Shown one piece after another: positions 3,124 to 32,429 of a stretch of 37,528 nt of DNA. Under the pieces are notes generated by a model, which ran no database searches, was not told the origin of the DNA, and was given only the letters and a program-made list of their open reading frames with translations. A program made the translations under genes and the position numbers. Origin of the DNA: Clostridia bacterium (GTDB lineage Bacteria; Bacillota; Clostridia; Oscillospirales; Acutalibacteraceae); the NCBI GenBank assembly GCA_017455295.1, contig JAFTBJ010000084.1:1-37528 (forward strand), read 5' to 3'. Each line of letters starts with the position of its first letter. Position 1 is the first letter of the stretch.

Positions 3124-4939
3124 CCGCCGTCGCCCCCTTTCGATAATACGCCGCCTGCACGTCGAACATCCGGCGATAGGCGCCGTTTTGCGCCATCAAC
3201 TCGTCGTGCGTGCCGCATTCGGTCAGTTGTCCGTCTTCAAAAAACGCGATGCGGTCGCAAAAATGGGTGGACGCGAGGCGATGGGAGATGTATACCGCCG
3301 TTTTTTGCCCGATCAGCCGGTCGAACGCGCGGTAGGTGTTTGCTTCCGCGATCGCGTCGAGCGCCGCCGTCGGTTCGTCGAGCAGCATGATCGGCGCGTC
3401 TTTGTACAGCGCGCGGGCAAAGCTGAGCTTTTGCTTTTCGCCGCCCGACAGCTCCACGCCGTCGTCCTCCATCATCCGCAGCATCGGCGTGTCGATCCCC
3501 TTTGGCAGCGAGGCCGCCTTCTCAAAAAGATCCGCCTGCCGCAGCACCGTTTCCACCCGCTCGCGGTCGAGCGTGTCGGCGTCGGTCGCGGCGACGTTTT
3601 CCGCGAGCGAGAACGCCGTCACTTTTACGTCCTGGAACACCGGCGAAAAGAGCATTGCGTATTCGTCCCGGTCAAATCGGCGAATATCGACGCCGTTGAG
3701 CAAAATCTGCCCCTCATCCGGCTCATACAACCGGCACAGCAGCTTGATAAACGTGGTCTTTCCGGCGCCGTTTTTGCCGACGATCGCGAGCTTTTCCCCG
3801 GCAGGGATGGTCAGCGACAGATCGGTATACACATCCCGCTCGGCGCCGGGATAGCGAAAGCGCACGTGGGAAAATTCGATCGTGTAGGGCGCCTTCGGCA
3901 GCGGAAGCGTGTCCGTGTTCTCCGCCTCCTCCGGCTCGGTGAATTCCCGCAGCTCGGAGATATACCAGCTCTCCCGCACAATGAACAGCACATTGTTGAT
4001 CAGGCTGATCATCCACCCACTAAAGGCGCTGATCGCGGTGAGGTACATCGTAAATTCCCCGATCGTCAGCGCGCCGGTGCACACCTGCCAGATCAAATAG
4101 GCATATACCGCGCCGTCCCGCAGCAGGTTGTTGGGCAGATGCCAGATGCCGAGGAAAAAGCGGTGATTTTGGATGCTGCGGGTGTAGCCGAGCCGCTCTT
4201 TTCGCGAGTCGATGAACCGCCGCAGCAGCCAACGGGACAGCCGGAAGATGCGAATATCTTTGCCATAGGCAAAATCGTACAGCACGGAATAGAGATACGC
4301 GCCGCGCCGCTCCACCCCGGCGATGTCGTCCTGCAGGCGGTATTCGTACCGCTCCACAAAATAGGTGATCAGATACACGACCCCGACGCTCATCCCGAGC
4401 CACAAAAGCAGCCACGGCGACAAGGTGGAGATGACCGCCACATATCCGGCAAGCCCGAGCATCTGTCCCCCGAGCTCAAACACCGTTTCGATGGTCGCTT
4501 CCATCCGCCAAAGCCCCTGCTCGGCGAGGTGCGCCCGGTCAAGGAAATCGCTGTCCTCCGTGTTGCGAAAGGCGGTGGTCATACATTTGAGCGCGTGCTG
4601 CTGCGTCAGGCGGGTGCGCAGGCGAAACACGCGGTGCGCCTGCGCGTGGAGAGAGGTTTTTTCGATCACGCCGAACAGCGCCGCTGTGCCCAACATCCCG
4701 CCGACGAGCCACATCAGCCGCGCCGGATCTCCGGCGCCTGTCAGCTCGTCGATGATGTACCGCGGGAAAAAGACGCCGATAAACGGCGTCGCCGCCAGCA
4801 CCAGCGTATAAATGCCCATCAGCGCAAACAGCGGTTTATCCGTTTTCCACGCGCCGGACAAAATGTAGCGAACCACCTGCCCCGCGTTGTATTTCGCGTG
4901 TTTTCGCCGCTCGTCGCGGTGATACGCCCGTACTTTCAC
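3107..4939 (-). CDS. ABC exporter half-transporter, first gene of a pair
   Basis: A 610-residue fused permease-ATPase and likely partner of the following half-transporter. The motifs are VGKNGAGKTTF (Walker A), LSGGEKQKLSFAR (signature), IMLLDEPTAALD (Walker B with catalytic Glu) and YISHRLAS (switch His), so it is canonical. The frame stays open upstream to 5263, but I chose the GTG at 4939 because GGAGGGAGAGAG lies directly before it and because the longer frame would translate a hairpin repeat array. The array at 4963-5080 sits just ahead of the ribosome-binding site, so it is in the leader or promoter region. I see no clear sigma-A promoter; readthrough from the ROK gene is possible. Confidence 0.87.
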   Translation of the reverse strand: MKVRAYHRDERRKHAKYNAGQVVRYILSGAWKTDKPLFALMGIYTLVLAATPFIGVFFPRYIIDELTGAGDPARLMWLVGGMLGTAALFGVIEKTSLHAQAHRVFRLRTRLTQQHALKCMTTAFRNTEDSDFLDRAHLAEQGLWRMEATIETVFELGGQMLGLAGYVAVISTLSPWLLLWLGMSVGVVYLITYFVERYEYRLQDDIAGVERRGAYLYSVLYDFAYGKDIRIFRLSRWLLRRFIDSRKERLGYTRSIQNHRFFLGIWHLPNNLLRDGAVYAYLIWQVCTGALTIGEFTMYLTAISAFSGWMISLINNVLFIVRESWYISELREFTEPEEAENTDTLPLPKAPYTIEFSHVRFRYPGAERDVYTDLSLTIPAGEKLAIVGKNGAGKTTFIKLLCRLYEPDEGQILLNGVDIRRFDRDEYAMLFSPVFQDVKVTAFSLAENVAATDADTLDRERVETVLRQADLFEKAASLPKGIDTPMLRMMEDDGVELSGGEKQKLSFARALYKDAPIMLLDEPTAALDAIAEANTYRAFDRLIGQKTAVYISHRLASTHFCDRIAFFEDGQLTECGTHDELMAQNGAYRRMFDVQAAYYRKGATADVDSE

Positions 4940-4962
4940 GATCTCTCTCCCTCCTTTCTCTC

Positions 4963-5080
4963 GCCGCCGACAGGCGGCATATCGCATTGGCGCAGCCAAT
5001 ATATCGCACGGTCGCGAGAGCGACCGTATATCGCATTCGCCGTCAGGCGAATATATCGCTGTCCGCGATAGCGGACAATA
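4963..5080. repeat. Ordered hairpin array A with ATATCGCA linkers
   Basis: Five hairpins read rightward: H1 GCCGCC-gaca-GGCGGC (4963-4978), H2 TTGGC-gca-GCCAA (4987-4999), H3 CGGTCGC-gaga-GCGACCG (5009-5026), H4 TTCGCC-gtca-GGCGAA (5036-5051) and H5 TGTCCGC-gata-GCGGACA (5060-5077). They are joined by ATATCGCA, TATATCGCA, TATATCGCA and TATATCGC. All stems are perfect. Homologous arrays occur at 8126-8213 and, inverted, at 31776-31872. H1 is nearest to the leftward ABC start codon. Confidence 0.9.
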
Positions 5081-8016: not shown

Positions 8017-8068
8017 GAAAAGCCGTCCATCCCGGCGCATTATGCCGCCTGCGACATCTTTTCTTCTA

Positions 8069-8099
8069 GCCTTCTCCTTGAGGCAGATTCTCCTGACAG
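8069..8099 (-). repeat. 31-bp dispersed repeat, copy 1
   Basis: On the minus strand this stretch matches 17780-17810 on the plus strand at 30 of 31 positions; it runs from CTGTCAGG to AAGGAGAAGGC. It lies in the parA upstream region beside hairpin array B. Confidence 0.7.
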
Positions 8100-8125
8100 A
8101 GGCCACGCCCGCGCCCTACGTCCTT

Positions 8126-8213
8126 GCCGCCGTCAGGCGGCATATCGCATTGCCGTTCGGCAATATATCGCACCGCGCGGAATGCGCAATATATCGCCTT
8201 TGCCGACAGGCAA
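8126..8213. repeat. Ordered hairpin array B with ATATCGCA linkers
   Basis: Read rightward: H1 GCCGCC-gtca-GGCGGC (8126-8141), H2 TTGCC-gttc-GGCAA (8150-8163), H3 a weaker GCGC-ggaat-GCGC (8175-8187), and H4 TTGCC-gaca-GGCAA (8200-8213). The linkers are ATATCGCA, TATATCGCA and AATATATCGCC. The order and H1 stem match arrays A and C. It lies between the divergent zinc-ribbon gene and parA, 56 bases before a parS site. Confidence 0.85.
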
Positions 8214-8268
8214 CTCATCACGTTCCCTCCAAAGCGCCGCTTCCGCAGCCGAACATATGTTCTTTTTG

Positions 8269-8284
8269 TGTTTCACGTGAAACA
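8269..8284. promoter_or_regulatory. parS centromere site 1
   Basis: TGTTTCACGTGAAACA, a perfect 16-bp palindrome identical to the consensus bound by Spo0J/ParB in Firmicutes. It lies 124 bases before parA. ParB loads here as a CTP-dependent clamp and recruits the segregation machinery and SMC. Confidence 0.96.
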
Positions 8285-17757: not shown

Positions 17758-17810
17758 GTCCGCTTTGCGGACATTTCCCCTGTCAGGGGAATCTGCCTCA
17801 AGGAGAAGGC
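17758..17810. repeat. Two hairpins plus 31-bp dispersed repeat, copy 2
   Basis: TGTCCGC-ttt-GCGGACA (17758-17774) uses the same stem as H5 of array A. TTCCCC-tgtca-GGGGAA overlaps the start of the 31-bp repeat 17780-17810, which matches 8069-8099 on the other strand at 30 of 31 positions. Downstream to 17904 come a TTTCCATTTTCAT-type tract and a CTCTAAT-type tract, then the next gene's ribosome-binding site. Confidence 0.65.
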
Positions 17811-30586: not shown

Positions 30587-31762
30587 ATGAAAACACTTTT
30601 AAAATGGTGCGCCGTGATCGGCGCGATGGCGCTGCTCTTTGGCGCATGGCCGATAACGGCGGCGGGCGCGGAGCAAAGCGGCGATTTTGAATATGAGATC
30701 GACGACGGCAAAGCGATCATCACGCGCTATCTGGGCAGCGACACGGTCGTCGACATCCCGGCGACCGTCGGGGGCTATCCCGTGACCGTGATCGGGAACG
30801 CGGCGTTTATCGCTTGCACGGAAATGACCGCCGTGACGATTCCCGACGGGGTGACCACCCTGGAAAATGCGGCGTTTTACGGTTGTTCCATGCTGGACGA
30901 GATCCATCTTCCCGATAGTTTGATATGGATCGGCAGCGAGGTGTTTGACTATACCTACTATTATGACAATCCCTATAACTGGGAAGAGGGGCTGCTGTAT
31001 ATCGGCAAGTATTTGATAAAAGCGAACAGCCGGGAGATTTCCACCTCCTGCCAGCTCAAGCCGGGCACCAGAGTGATTGCGGCGGGGGCGTTTGAACTGT
31101 GTGACGATATGCAATCGGTTATCGTGTCCGAGGGGCTGATCGGCATCGGGGAATCGGCGTTTAAAGGCTGCGAGTGCCTTGCGCTCGTCATCCTGCCGGG
31201 CAGCGTGACGGCGATCGGCGGCGGGGCGTTTGAGGGTACGGCCTATTATGAGTATCCCGGCAACTGGGAAGACGGCGCGCTCTATATCGGGCCGTATCTG
31301 ATCGAGGTAAAGGGCGAGGAGATCCCCGCCCATTACAACGTGAGGCCCGGCACCAAAACGATCGCGGAAGGCGCGTTTATTTCCTGTGGGGAGATGCGAT
31401 CGCTCCTGTTCCCCGCCAGCGTAACCAACATCAGCCCGTGGGTGTTTCAGCGGTGCCGAGCGTTGCGGCATGTGTATTACGGCGGTACAAAAGAGGATCG
31501 CGAACAACTTGCGATCGACATAGGCAACGACAGACTATCGGCGGCGGTGTGGCATTACGGCGCCACAGCGCCGGTGATCATGGCGGGCGATATGGATGAG
31601 AGCGGCGTGCTGAACATGGACGACGCGTTCACCCTTTATCGCGCGATGTCGGGGCAGATCACGCTGACCGAGGCGCAGACGCGCGCCGCCGATATGAACG
31701 GCGACGAGATTGTCAATATGGCGGATGCGTTCGCGCTCTACCGCGAAGTGGCGGGACAGTAA
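30587..31762 (+). CDS. Secreted BspA-like leucine-rich-repeat protein with dockerin domain
   Basis: A 391-residue exported protein. Residues 1-28 are a signal peptide (MKTLLKWCAVIGAMALLFGA, then WPITAAGA). Residues ~60-330 are LRR_5/BspA repeats such as AFIACTEMTAVTIPDGVTTL and AFKGCECLALVILPGSVTAI. A ~95-residue module (Y-YxxPxNWExGxLYIGxYLI ... GAF) occurs twice, near residues 125 and 220. The C-terminus is a type I dockerin with two calcium loops: DMDESGVLNMDD and DMNGDEIVNMAD. Such proteins bind cohesins on scaffoldins or the cell surface. No cohesin gene is in the window. The second loop has Glu where Gly is usual. An RBS in the duplicated leader fixes the start. Confidence 0.88.
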   Translation: MKTLLKWCAVIGAMALLFGAWPITAAGAEQSGDFEYEIDDGKAIITRYLGSDTVVDIPATVGGYPVTVIGNAAFIACTEMTAVTIPDGVTTLENAAFYGCSMLDEIHLPDSLIWIGSEVFDYTYYYDNPYNWEEGLLYIGKYLIKANSREISTSCQLKPGTRVIAAGAFELCDDMQSVIVSEGLIGIGESAFKGCECLALVILPGSVTAIGGGAFEGTAYYEYPGNWEDGALYIGPYLIEVKGEEIPAHYNVRPGTKTIAEGAFISCGEMRSLLFPASVTNISPWVFQRCRALRHVYYGGTKEDREQLAIDIGNDRLSAAVWHYGATAPVIMAGDMDESGVLNMDDAFTLYRAMSGQITLTEAQTRAADMNGDEIVNMADAFALYREVAGQ

Positions 31763-31775
31763 GAACCATACTATA

Positions 31776-31872
31776 TTCGCCTGACGACAAATGCGATATA
31801 TCGCGCGTTCCGCGCGATGCGATATATTGCCTGATGGCAATTCGATATGCCGCCGAGCGGCGGCGCGATATG
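31776..31872 (-). repeat. Ordered hairpin array C with ATATCGCA linkers
   Basis: Read on the minus strand: H1 GCCGCC-gctc-GGCGGC, H2 TTGCC-atca-GGCAA, H3 TCGCGCG-gaa-CGCGCGA, and H4 TTTGTC-gtca-GGCGAA (paired with two G-U wobbles). The linkers are ATATCGAA, TATATCGCA and TATATCGCA. It is inverted relative to arrays A and B, with H1 closest to the downstream rightward gene. Confidence 0.87.
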
Positions 31873-31906
31873 TTTGCGGCTTGTGCCGCAAACAAGAAAA
31901 GGACAA
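31866..31906 (+). repeat. Duplicated leader with ribosome-binding site, copy 2
   Basis: CGATATGTT, hairpin TTTGCGGC-ttgt-GCCGCAAA, then CAAGAAAAGGACAAA, 8 bases before ATG 31914. It matches copy 1 at 30541-30580 over most of its length and directly abuts hairpin array C. Confidence 0.75.
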
Positions 31907-31913
31907 AACCACC

Positions 31914-32429
31914 ATGGAATTTGATGTGATACTCATCCCCACCGAGGAAGAACTACTCAACGGGCTGCAGCGGGCGCAGCTGCGCCGCGCGAGCACGCCC
32001 CGGCTGATTGTGCAGACGGTGCTGCTCGCGGCGGTGGCCGCATGGAGCGGGATCGCCTTTTTCGGGGACGGGATGAACAGCCTGCCGTCGCTCCTCATCG
32101 CGATCGTCGCCTTGGCGCTGATCCCGGTGATGTGGCTGGCGCCGGGCGCGCGGCTCAAAGCGATGGCAAAAGATGCGGCCGGGAGCGGCGAGCATCCGCA
32201 TATGTGGGTATGGGACGACGGCGTCGATTTTGGGCCGGAGCGCCCGGATACCGCCTATTATATGTTCGGCGCGTTTTTTGTTGATCAAAACGAACAAAGC
32301 CTCGTGTTCCGCTTTGCGAGCGACGAGGTGATCGTCGTGCCATGTCGGCAGCTGACCGACGACCAGCGTCGATTCCTGTTTGAGAAAACGGCGGGATCGA
32401 CCGCGATCAGGAGGACGCGATGGAGGTAA
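31914..32429 (+). CDS. Small two-helix membrane protein, YcxB-like (1 of 4)
   Basis: A 171-residue protein. A polar N-terminus (MEFDVILIPTEEELLNGLQR) is followed by two hydrophobic helices near residues 29-48 and 55-75 and a C-terminal cytoplasmic domain of ~95 residues (MWVWDDGVDFGPE ... LVFRFASDEVIVVPCRQLTDDQ). The plan of N-terminal strand, helix pair and beta-rich domain ending in 'hhhPxRxL' matches YcxB-like proteins. No function is established. First gene of a paralogue operon; the next gene overlaps it by ten bases. The start is set by the duplicated leader's AAAAGGA. Confidence 0.7.
   Translation: MEFDVILIPTEEELLNGLQRAQLRRASTPRLIVQTVLLAAVAAWSGIAFFGDGMNSLPSLLIAIVALALIPVMWLAPGARLKAMAKDAAGSGEHPHMWVWDDGVDFGPERPDTAYYMFGAFFVDQNEQSLVFRFASDEVIVVPCRQLTDDQRRFLFEKTAGSTAIRRTRWR

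Follow-up and report, generated by a model that had tools for sequence, protein, structure and literature searches.

Three hairpin arrays in a stretch of 37,528 nt from a gut bacterium of the Clostridia (the whole stretch of DNA analyzed, hereafter the window) are probably remnants of mobile elements whose complete relatives carry a gene of the IVP/S23 family. We put the probability of this reading, in which IVP would recognize the linker between the hairpins and mobilize the arrays in trans, at roughly 0.7. We also lean towards the broader proposal that these elements represent a new class, encoding solely a four-helix IVP/S23 protein that would recognize a lineage-specific linker between extruded DNA hairpins. 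The open literature that we searched, with most subscription journals and preprints outside its scope, contains no description of these elements, which apparently form an undescribed family.

Hairpin arrays in the window and their dispersal

The arrays A, B and C (Table 1) were found where an earlier note on this DNA had placed them, with the hairpin order that it gave. In each, near-perfect inverted repeats follow one another with ATATCGC between them, and the stem-loop between two linkers extends right up to the linker edges. The linker is near-constant as described, but the flanking T that had been counted with it is not part of it: the constant 7-mer is ATATCGC, and the flanking T or A belongs to the stem. 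Array C keeps the described order with a larger number of hairpins, an extra one (GTTTGCGGC/GCCGCAAAC) beside H1 at 31872-31893 having been overlooked. Array B has the expected place and order; its H3 does not pair from the ends and its H4 is damaged, so that it looks like a decayed copy. The rescue of pairing in H4 of array C by G-U holds on the minus strand only; on the plus strand, which is the sense of the neighboring genes, C·A mismatches stand there instead.

The window has 22 occurrences of the motif ATATCGC where 7.3 would be expected, none of 100 shuffles reaching 22, and arrays A, B and C each fold better than their dinucleotide shuffles (z from -3.8 to -4.9). The IVP gene is absent from all three, which are non-autonomous copies of the D type defined below. 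A scan of the window matched no Rfam family, and the window contains no rRNA.

Table 1. Positions in the window of the arrays, their parts and adjoining features.
Feature	Position	Strand	Description
Array A	4963..5077	-	non-autonomous D-type, five hairpins; linkers read GCGATAT in element sense
Array A hairpins	4963-4978, 4986-5000, 5008-5027, 5035-5052, 5060-5077		
Array A linkers	4979-4985, 5001-5007, 5028-5034, 5053-5059	+	four ATATCGC
Gene start after array A	4937..4957	-	Shine-Dalgarno AAAGGAGG (4957-4950) and likely GTG start (4939-4937) of ABC-transporter gene (to 3107)
Array B	8126..8214	-	D-type, four hairpins, H3 and H4 imperfect
Array B linkers	8142-8148, 8165-8171, 8191-8197		
Palindrome TGTTTCACGTGAAACA	8269-8284		parS-like
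Second dispersed repeat	8062-8113, 17777-17810		CTTCTCCTTGAGGCAGATTCTCCTGACAG...
Array C	31775..31893	+	D-type, five hairpins
Array C linkers	31793-31799, 31819-31825, 31842-31848, 31865-31871		31842-31848 is the variant TCGATAT
Gene start after array C	31897..31916	+	Shine-Dalgarno AAAAGGA and ATG (31914)

The search for linker-flanked hairpins suggested by the earlier note was rewarding in the window's genome (G000; 1.88 Mb, 230 contigs, 91.7% complete), where the pattern ATATCGC-N9-24-ATATCGC gave 38 matches and the reversed-pattern control none. A literal search of the same genome for GCCGCC-N8-GGCGGC found 5 places, none of them an array, and 8 in the control; since it missed every array, the stems are not the conserved part. 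Ordered copies, whose absence from related genomes would have spoken against the note, are present in 19 of 135 genera: of 300 genomes from the same family, 23 have three linkers in register, with essentially no matches for the control. Such patchy occurrence is as for mobile DNA. Named records with hairpin-forming spacers are mostly metagenome-assembled genomes of Oscillospiraceae/Clostridia, many of them from rumen or gut. In a scan of viral contigs, the matches were mostly chance or repetitive, with a few genuine arrays (e.g., L262 and L220).

The complete element and its IVP gene

The complete element is about 0.6 kb long. In most copies a terminal hairpin comes first; then follow a D array, a center, a U array and one IVP/S23 ORF, the two-part D-U form lying directly upstream of the IVP gene. 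Linkers read GCGATAT in D and ATATCGC in U, and the two arrays are opposed. The center contains a hairpin and GGAATTTATATC, the latter complementary to the D outer end GATATAAATTCC; the 3′ end of the element is no more than about 10 nt away from the stop codon of IVP. The small ORF following U belongs to PF05635 (23S_rRNA_IVP). Genes for IVP/S23 "four helix bundle" proteins are known from the inside of split 23S rRNAs. Loci retrieved by DNA pattern alone carry this ORF beside their arrays (L071, L080, L126, L162, L207, L210 and, partly, L137). The window's genome holds mostly D-only copies and one D-U composite without an IVP gene (contig C10). Element-like loci with other linkers also turned up in a distantly related member of the same phylum, at L477 with two D-U copies in tandem, and on contigs assigned to viruses or phages (L478, L482 and L483).

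Two peculiarities of individual loci may be mentioned. In L207 (1151-2025), L511, L512 and L513, the D array forms a direct repeat flanking U-IVP plus cargo, like a composite element; the cargo in L207 is DUF7225. In L071 and L080, the D outer end is located at the 3′ end of a rumA-like 23S rRNA methyltransferase gene, seemingly the same one when judged by eye, and the terminal hairpin doubles as the last codons of this gene.

Genes of the IVP/S23 family occur in 145 of the 300 genomes, with PF05635 in 22 of the 23 array genomes and 123 of the 277 others (Fisher p = 7e-7). A detector with no preset linker, which looked within 500 bp for chains of three or more hairpins sharing a recurrent 6-mer, found such chains on the upstream side at 68 of 145 IVP genes and on the downstream side at 5 of 138 (p = 1e-18). 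The linker variants are ATATCGC, ATATCGA, ATATCAC, ATATAAC, ATTTCAC, ATTTCAT, CTTCAC, CTTCAT, CATCAC and CATCAT; the linker is uniform within one element and different between element lineages. Traced over a tree built from 67 IVPs, the linker type, set by hand in a few cases where the D array alone was found and with L298 added by hand, changes 14 times, against 45.6 changes when shuffled and a possible minimum of 10, and the 18 ATATCGC elements all fall on one side of a branch. This agreement alone shows that the array and the IVP gene form one element; by itself it is no argument for recognition, because the two are physically linked. All linkers of an element changing jointly, while its hairpin sequences do not hold, is what points to recognition by IVP. 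Hairpins turn over fast yet remain complementary: in L109 and L156, from one genome, flanks and linkers are nearly identical and most hairpins have been replaced, still with complementary arms. The suggestion of a protein-bound repeat in the earlier note thus went in the right direction, in that the element has one protein and the IVP clade predicts the linker; the binding itself we infer.

The single IVP gene found in the window's genome (contig C34, locus L298) is accompanied by an ATTTCAC-type array. No ATATCGC-type IVP was found in this 91.7% complete genome, and the window arrays are therefore probably orphaned copies. Classic high-scoring IVPs (L299-L312) have no such hairpin arrays, and on plasmids of Treponema, Bernardetia and Planktothrix the IVP genes are accompanied by short tandem repeats instead, possibly a parallel design. 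These plasmid genes are L479, L481 and L484; the Bernardetia gene has upstream ATTAGTG runs, and those of Treponema and Planktothrix have runs of short motifs (GGTGAAAG; GATTTACGATTT) on both sides, partly inverted. Short degenerate tandem repeats (GCGAAATGCGAAGT, CGCTAAACGCTAAGTG, GCGTAATGCGTAAT, GCAGAGTGCAGAATG), and not hairpin arrays, also lie upstream of IVP genes of other clades at L314, L320, L325 and L326. The locus L398 contains two consecutive IVP genes, each with its own CTTCAT-type array.

A fold model of IVP, built from a single sequence (pLDDT 77), matches the S23 protein 2RLD (42% identity) and then 2GSC, the latter described as five four-helix bundles in a title cited in PMC10053308. 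More weakly, it also matches Avd (4DWL; TM 0.66-0.69, E 0.07 or worse) and a DGR reverse-transcriptase complex (8UB7).

Sites between genes and presumed movement

Two of the three arrays, A and C, adjoin the ribosome-binding site of the following gene. The Shine-Dalgarno and likely start of the ABC-transporter gene come directly after the inner hairpin of array A; array C fills an intercistronic gap, as the dockerin/LRR gene upstream of it stops at 31762. Array B has a divergent ParA gene as its neighbor. The parS-like palindrome, some 55 bp away from array B, lies upstream of parA (8409), as it does in two congeners. The second dispersed repeat adjoins array B and recurs in partial form at roughly ten or more other places in the genome.

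In the window's genome, 5 of 15 tested arrays (4 of 13 counted as single) precede a Shine-Dalgarno and an ORF of 50 codons or more within 75 nt, reading in the D sense, and none does so in the opposite sense; this test missed array C and the array on contig C56, where the adjacency is visible by eye. Outside this genome, start codons beside arrays show no strand bias (11 vs. 14), so the Shine-Dalgarno adjacency rests on the window's genome and on boundary-mapped elements, which stop at the Shine-Dalgarno of the downstream gene. Copies sit between genes, often ending at this signal, and at an occupied site in G148 the D outer end abuts the stop codon of the preceding gene.

The four loci L351, L376, L401 and L475, representing four genera of two families, have a common stretch of 590-655 bp, 88-92% identical, between unrelated flanks. 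At its left end the alignment begins with the terminal hairpin, absent in L401; neither a terminal inverted repeat nor a clear target duplication is seen in this alignment. At the L412 junction, which has a conserved gene on either side, arrays and IVP are present in G148, G1049 and G1051, with gaps of 764-1620 bp, and the junction is nearly bare in the congeners G018 and G1048 (43-45 bp). Some other congeners have unrelated inserts there, which makes it a busy junction. The same element is thus present at unrelated sites with defined ends, and orthologous sites are either occupied or vacant. These comparisons, with one genome per species, show fixed differences, from which we infer movement. 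Another genus served for the vacant-site comparison because the own-genus surroundings are too different for a clean vacant site: in G037, G159 and G240 the neighborhoods of A and B lack arrays, and the gene order or the sequence around them is strongly different. A REP-like mobile family, another option of the earlier note, was the right direction insofar as the arrays are dispersed and absent at the congener junctions examined.

We hypothesize that IVP, which is related to Avd of the DGRs and likely forms an oligomer, attaches to a hairpin chain at its linkers, which single-stranded element DNA would display as short unpaired stretches between extruded hairpins. The resulting complex would let the element be copied into new intercistronic sites, and D-only copies could be mobilized in trans while a matching IVP is present. 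Linkers would stay constant because one protein must recognize all of them, and the stems may be kept perfect at the DNA level via the need for extrusion and/or arm-to-arm template switching. We know of no catalytic activity of IVP, and the moving enzyme is for this reason missing from the model; the copying and insertion enzymes would be supplied in trans.

Pairing, alternative explanations and known systems

The covariation check turned out in favor of paired stems. In the window's genome, Watson-Crick pairing of the outer five bases amounts to 92%, compared with 42% once arms are shuffled among copies (z = 11), and 26 of 31 distinct inter-linker spacers are closed by a stem of at least 4 bp. 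Among 27 unique D-U composites, the hairpin arms are paired at 0.84-0.97 against 0.43-0.67 shuffled (z 6.5-12 per slot), and the long-range closing pair of D covaries (0.96 against 0.76, z = 8). Relatedness alone can beat such shuffles without any structure; it is unlikely to be the full explanation, since there are many distinct stems (e.g., 19 among 27 in U1).

The structured RNA that the earlier note had offered as an option is not supported by these data: covariation is strong, yet G·U on the sense strand shows no clear excess over A·C. Over 323 spacers, the sense strand has 1497 Watson-Crick pairs, 39 G·T, 29 A·C and 147 others, and in the 27 composites G·T and A·C number 11 each. As there is no clear sign of selection on the RNA strand, the perfect inverted repeats seem, judging from the low wobble, to be kept at the DNA level. 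The best-surviving alternative is an element acting at the RNA level, in which the array would be transcribed with the operon, IVP would bind RNA linkers and the element would move via a reverse transcriptase in trans, or else the array would be a regulated 5′ leader. The arrays lying between genes in gene sense, often up to a Shine-Dalgarno, would suit it, as would the presence of Avd, which works with the DGR reverse transcriptase, and of a DGR ribonucleoprotein among the fold matches; the D closing stem moreover competes with its outer hairpin, in a switch-like manner. However, sense-strand G·U (2.3%) is not clearly above A·C (1.7%), the mapped element fits the IVP ORF alone and Rfam gives no match, and we regard this alternative as rather unlikely.

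The arrays were rightly set apart from ordinary REPs, one genome having about 30 different stems and ATATCGC as the constant part. In most REPs the palindrome bears a terminal GTAG or CGTC tag on one side (PMC3733652); here no conserved palindrome with such a tag was found, and the arrays flank IVP genes, not a partner Y1 transposase. That they are REP/REPIN-type repeats moved by a Y1 transposase (RAYT) is very improbable: the palindromes are indeed dispersed between genes, and 18 of the 23 array genomes have Y1_Tnp genes, but the other 5 have no Y1_Tnp match, the adjoining gene is IVP, and many different stems with a constant linker are unlike the tagged REP palindromes (PMC3733652). With no RAYT link found and a differing architecture, we rejected this partnership. 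The elements resemble REP/BIME/REPIN-RAYT systems in their many short intergenic palindromes, one mobilizing gene and non-autonomous copies, and differ in the unrelated protein, the constant linker with variable stems and the two opposed arrays per element.

A host feature (terminators, mRNA stabilizers or nucleoid-protein sites) with IVP genes adjacent by chance would account for stable hairpins between genes but is hardly credible given the patchy presence in 23 of 300 genomes, the discrete boundaries of about 600 bp, which include the IVP ORF and are common to different families, and the nearly bare sites in congeners; individual array copies could still be domesticated by the host.

Mobile IVP hairpin-array elements, the reading we prefer, have a close parallel in the intervening sequences (IVSs) of 23S rRNA in Coxiella and Leptospira, small selfish elements with a PF05635 ORF and complementary borders, long suspected of mobility (PMC4990558). 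Both have one PF05635 ORF (in the present case in complete relatives, the window copies being without it) and complementary borders. However, 23S IVSs are extended stem-loops in 23S rRNA helices, whereas the window arrays and the mapped elements are situated between protein-coding genes; in the complete elements, short hairpins form two ordered arrays whose linkers are specific to the lineage. The likeness to DGRs consists in the Avd fold of IVP, a weak match (4DWL, 8UB7); the boundary-mapped elements of about 600 bp, with one ORF each, leave no space for a reverse transcriptase, and no pair of template and variable repeats was seen. ERIC/IRU and BOX are palindromic or modular intercistronic repeats, often in gene sense, as are the present arrays; the constant linker separates the latter from them, and ERIC/IRU and BOX are not known to possess an autonomous partner gene or constant-linker arrays. 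CRISPR arrays likewise alternate constant and variable stretches regularly, but in the present arrays it is an unpaired stretch of 7 nt that stays constant and self-complementary stretches that vary, and we saw no cas genes. None of REP/RAYT, 23S IVS and DGR agrees with the elements in every defining feature tested, and on these comparisons we regard the type of mobile element as new, its movement being presumed.

The function of IVP now becomes testable, as discrete dispersed elements carry a short motif that predicts the IVP lineage. A paper on the Coxiella IVS mentions the long-standing proposal that mobility requires the IVS ORF (PMC4990558), for which these elements offer a tractable setting. 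If our reading is true, it would give the widespread IVP/S23 family of "function unknown" its first job and might connect it evolutionarily with 23S intervening sequences and with the Avd of DGRs. A large class of hairpin repeats that are unannotated in gut Clostridia would then be accounted for, and the known types of mobile element would gain one without a recognizable transposase.
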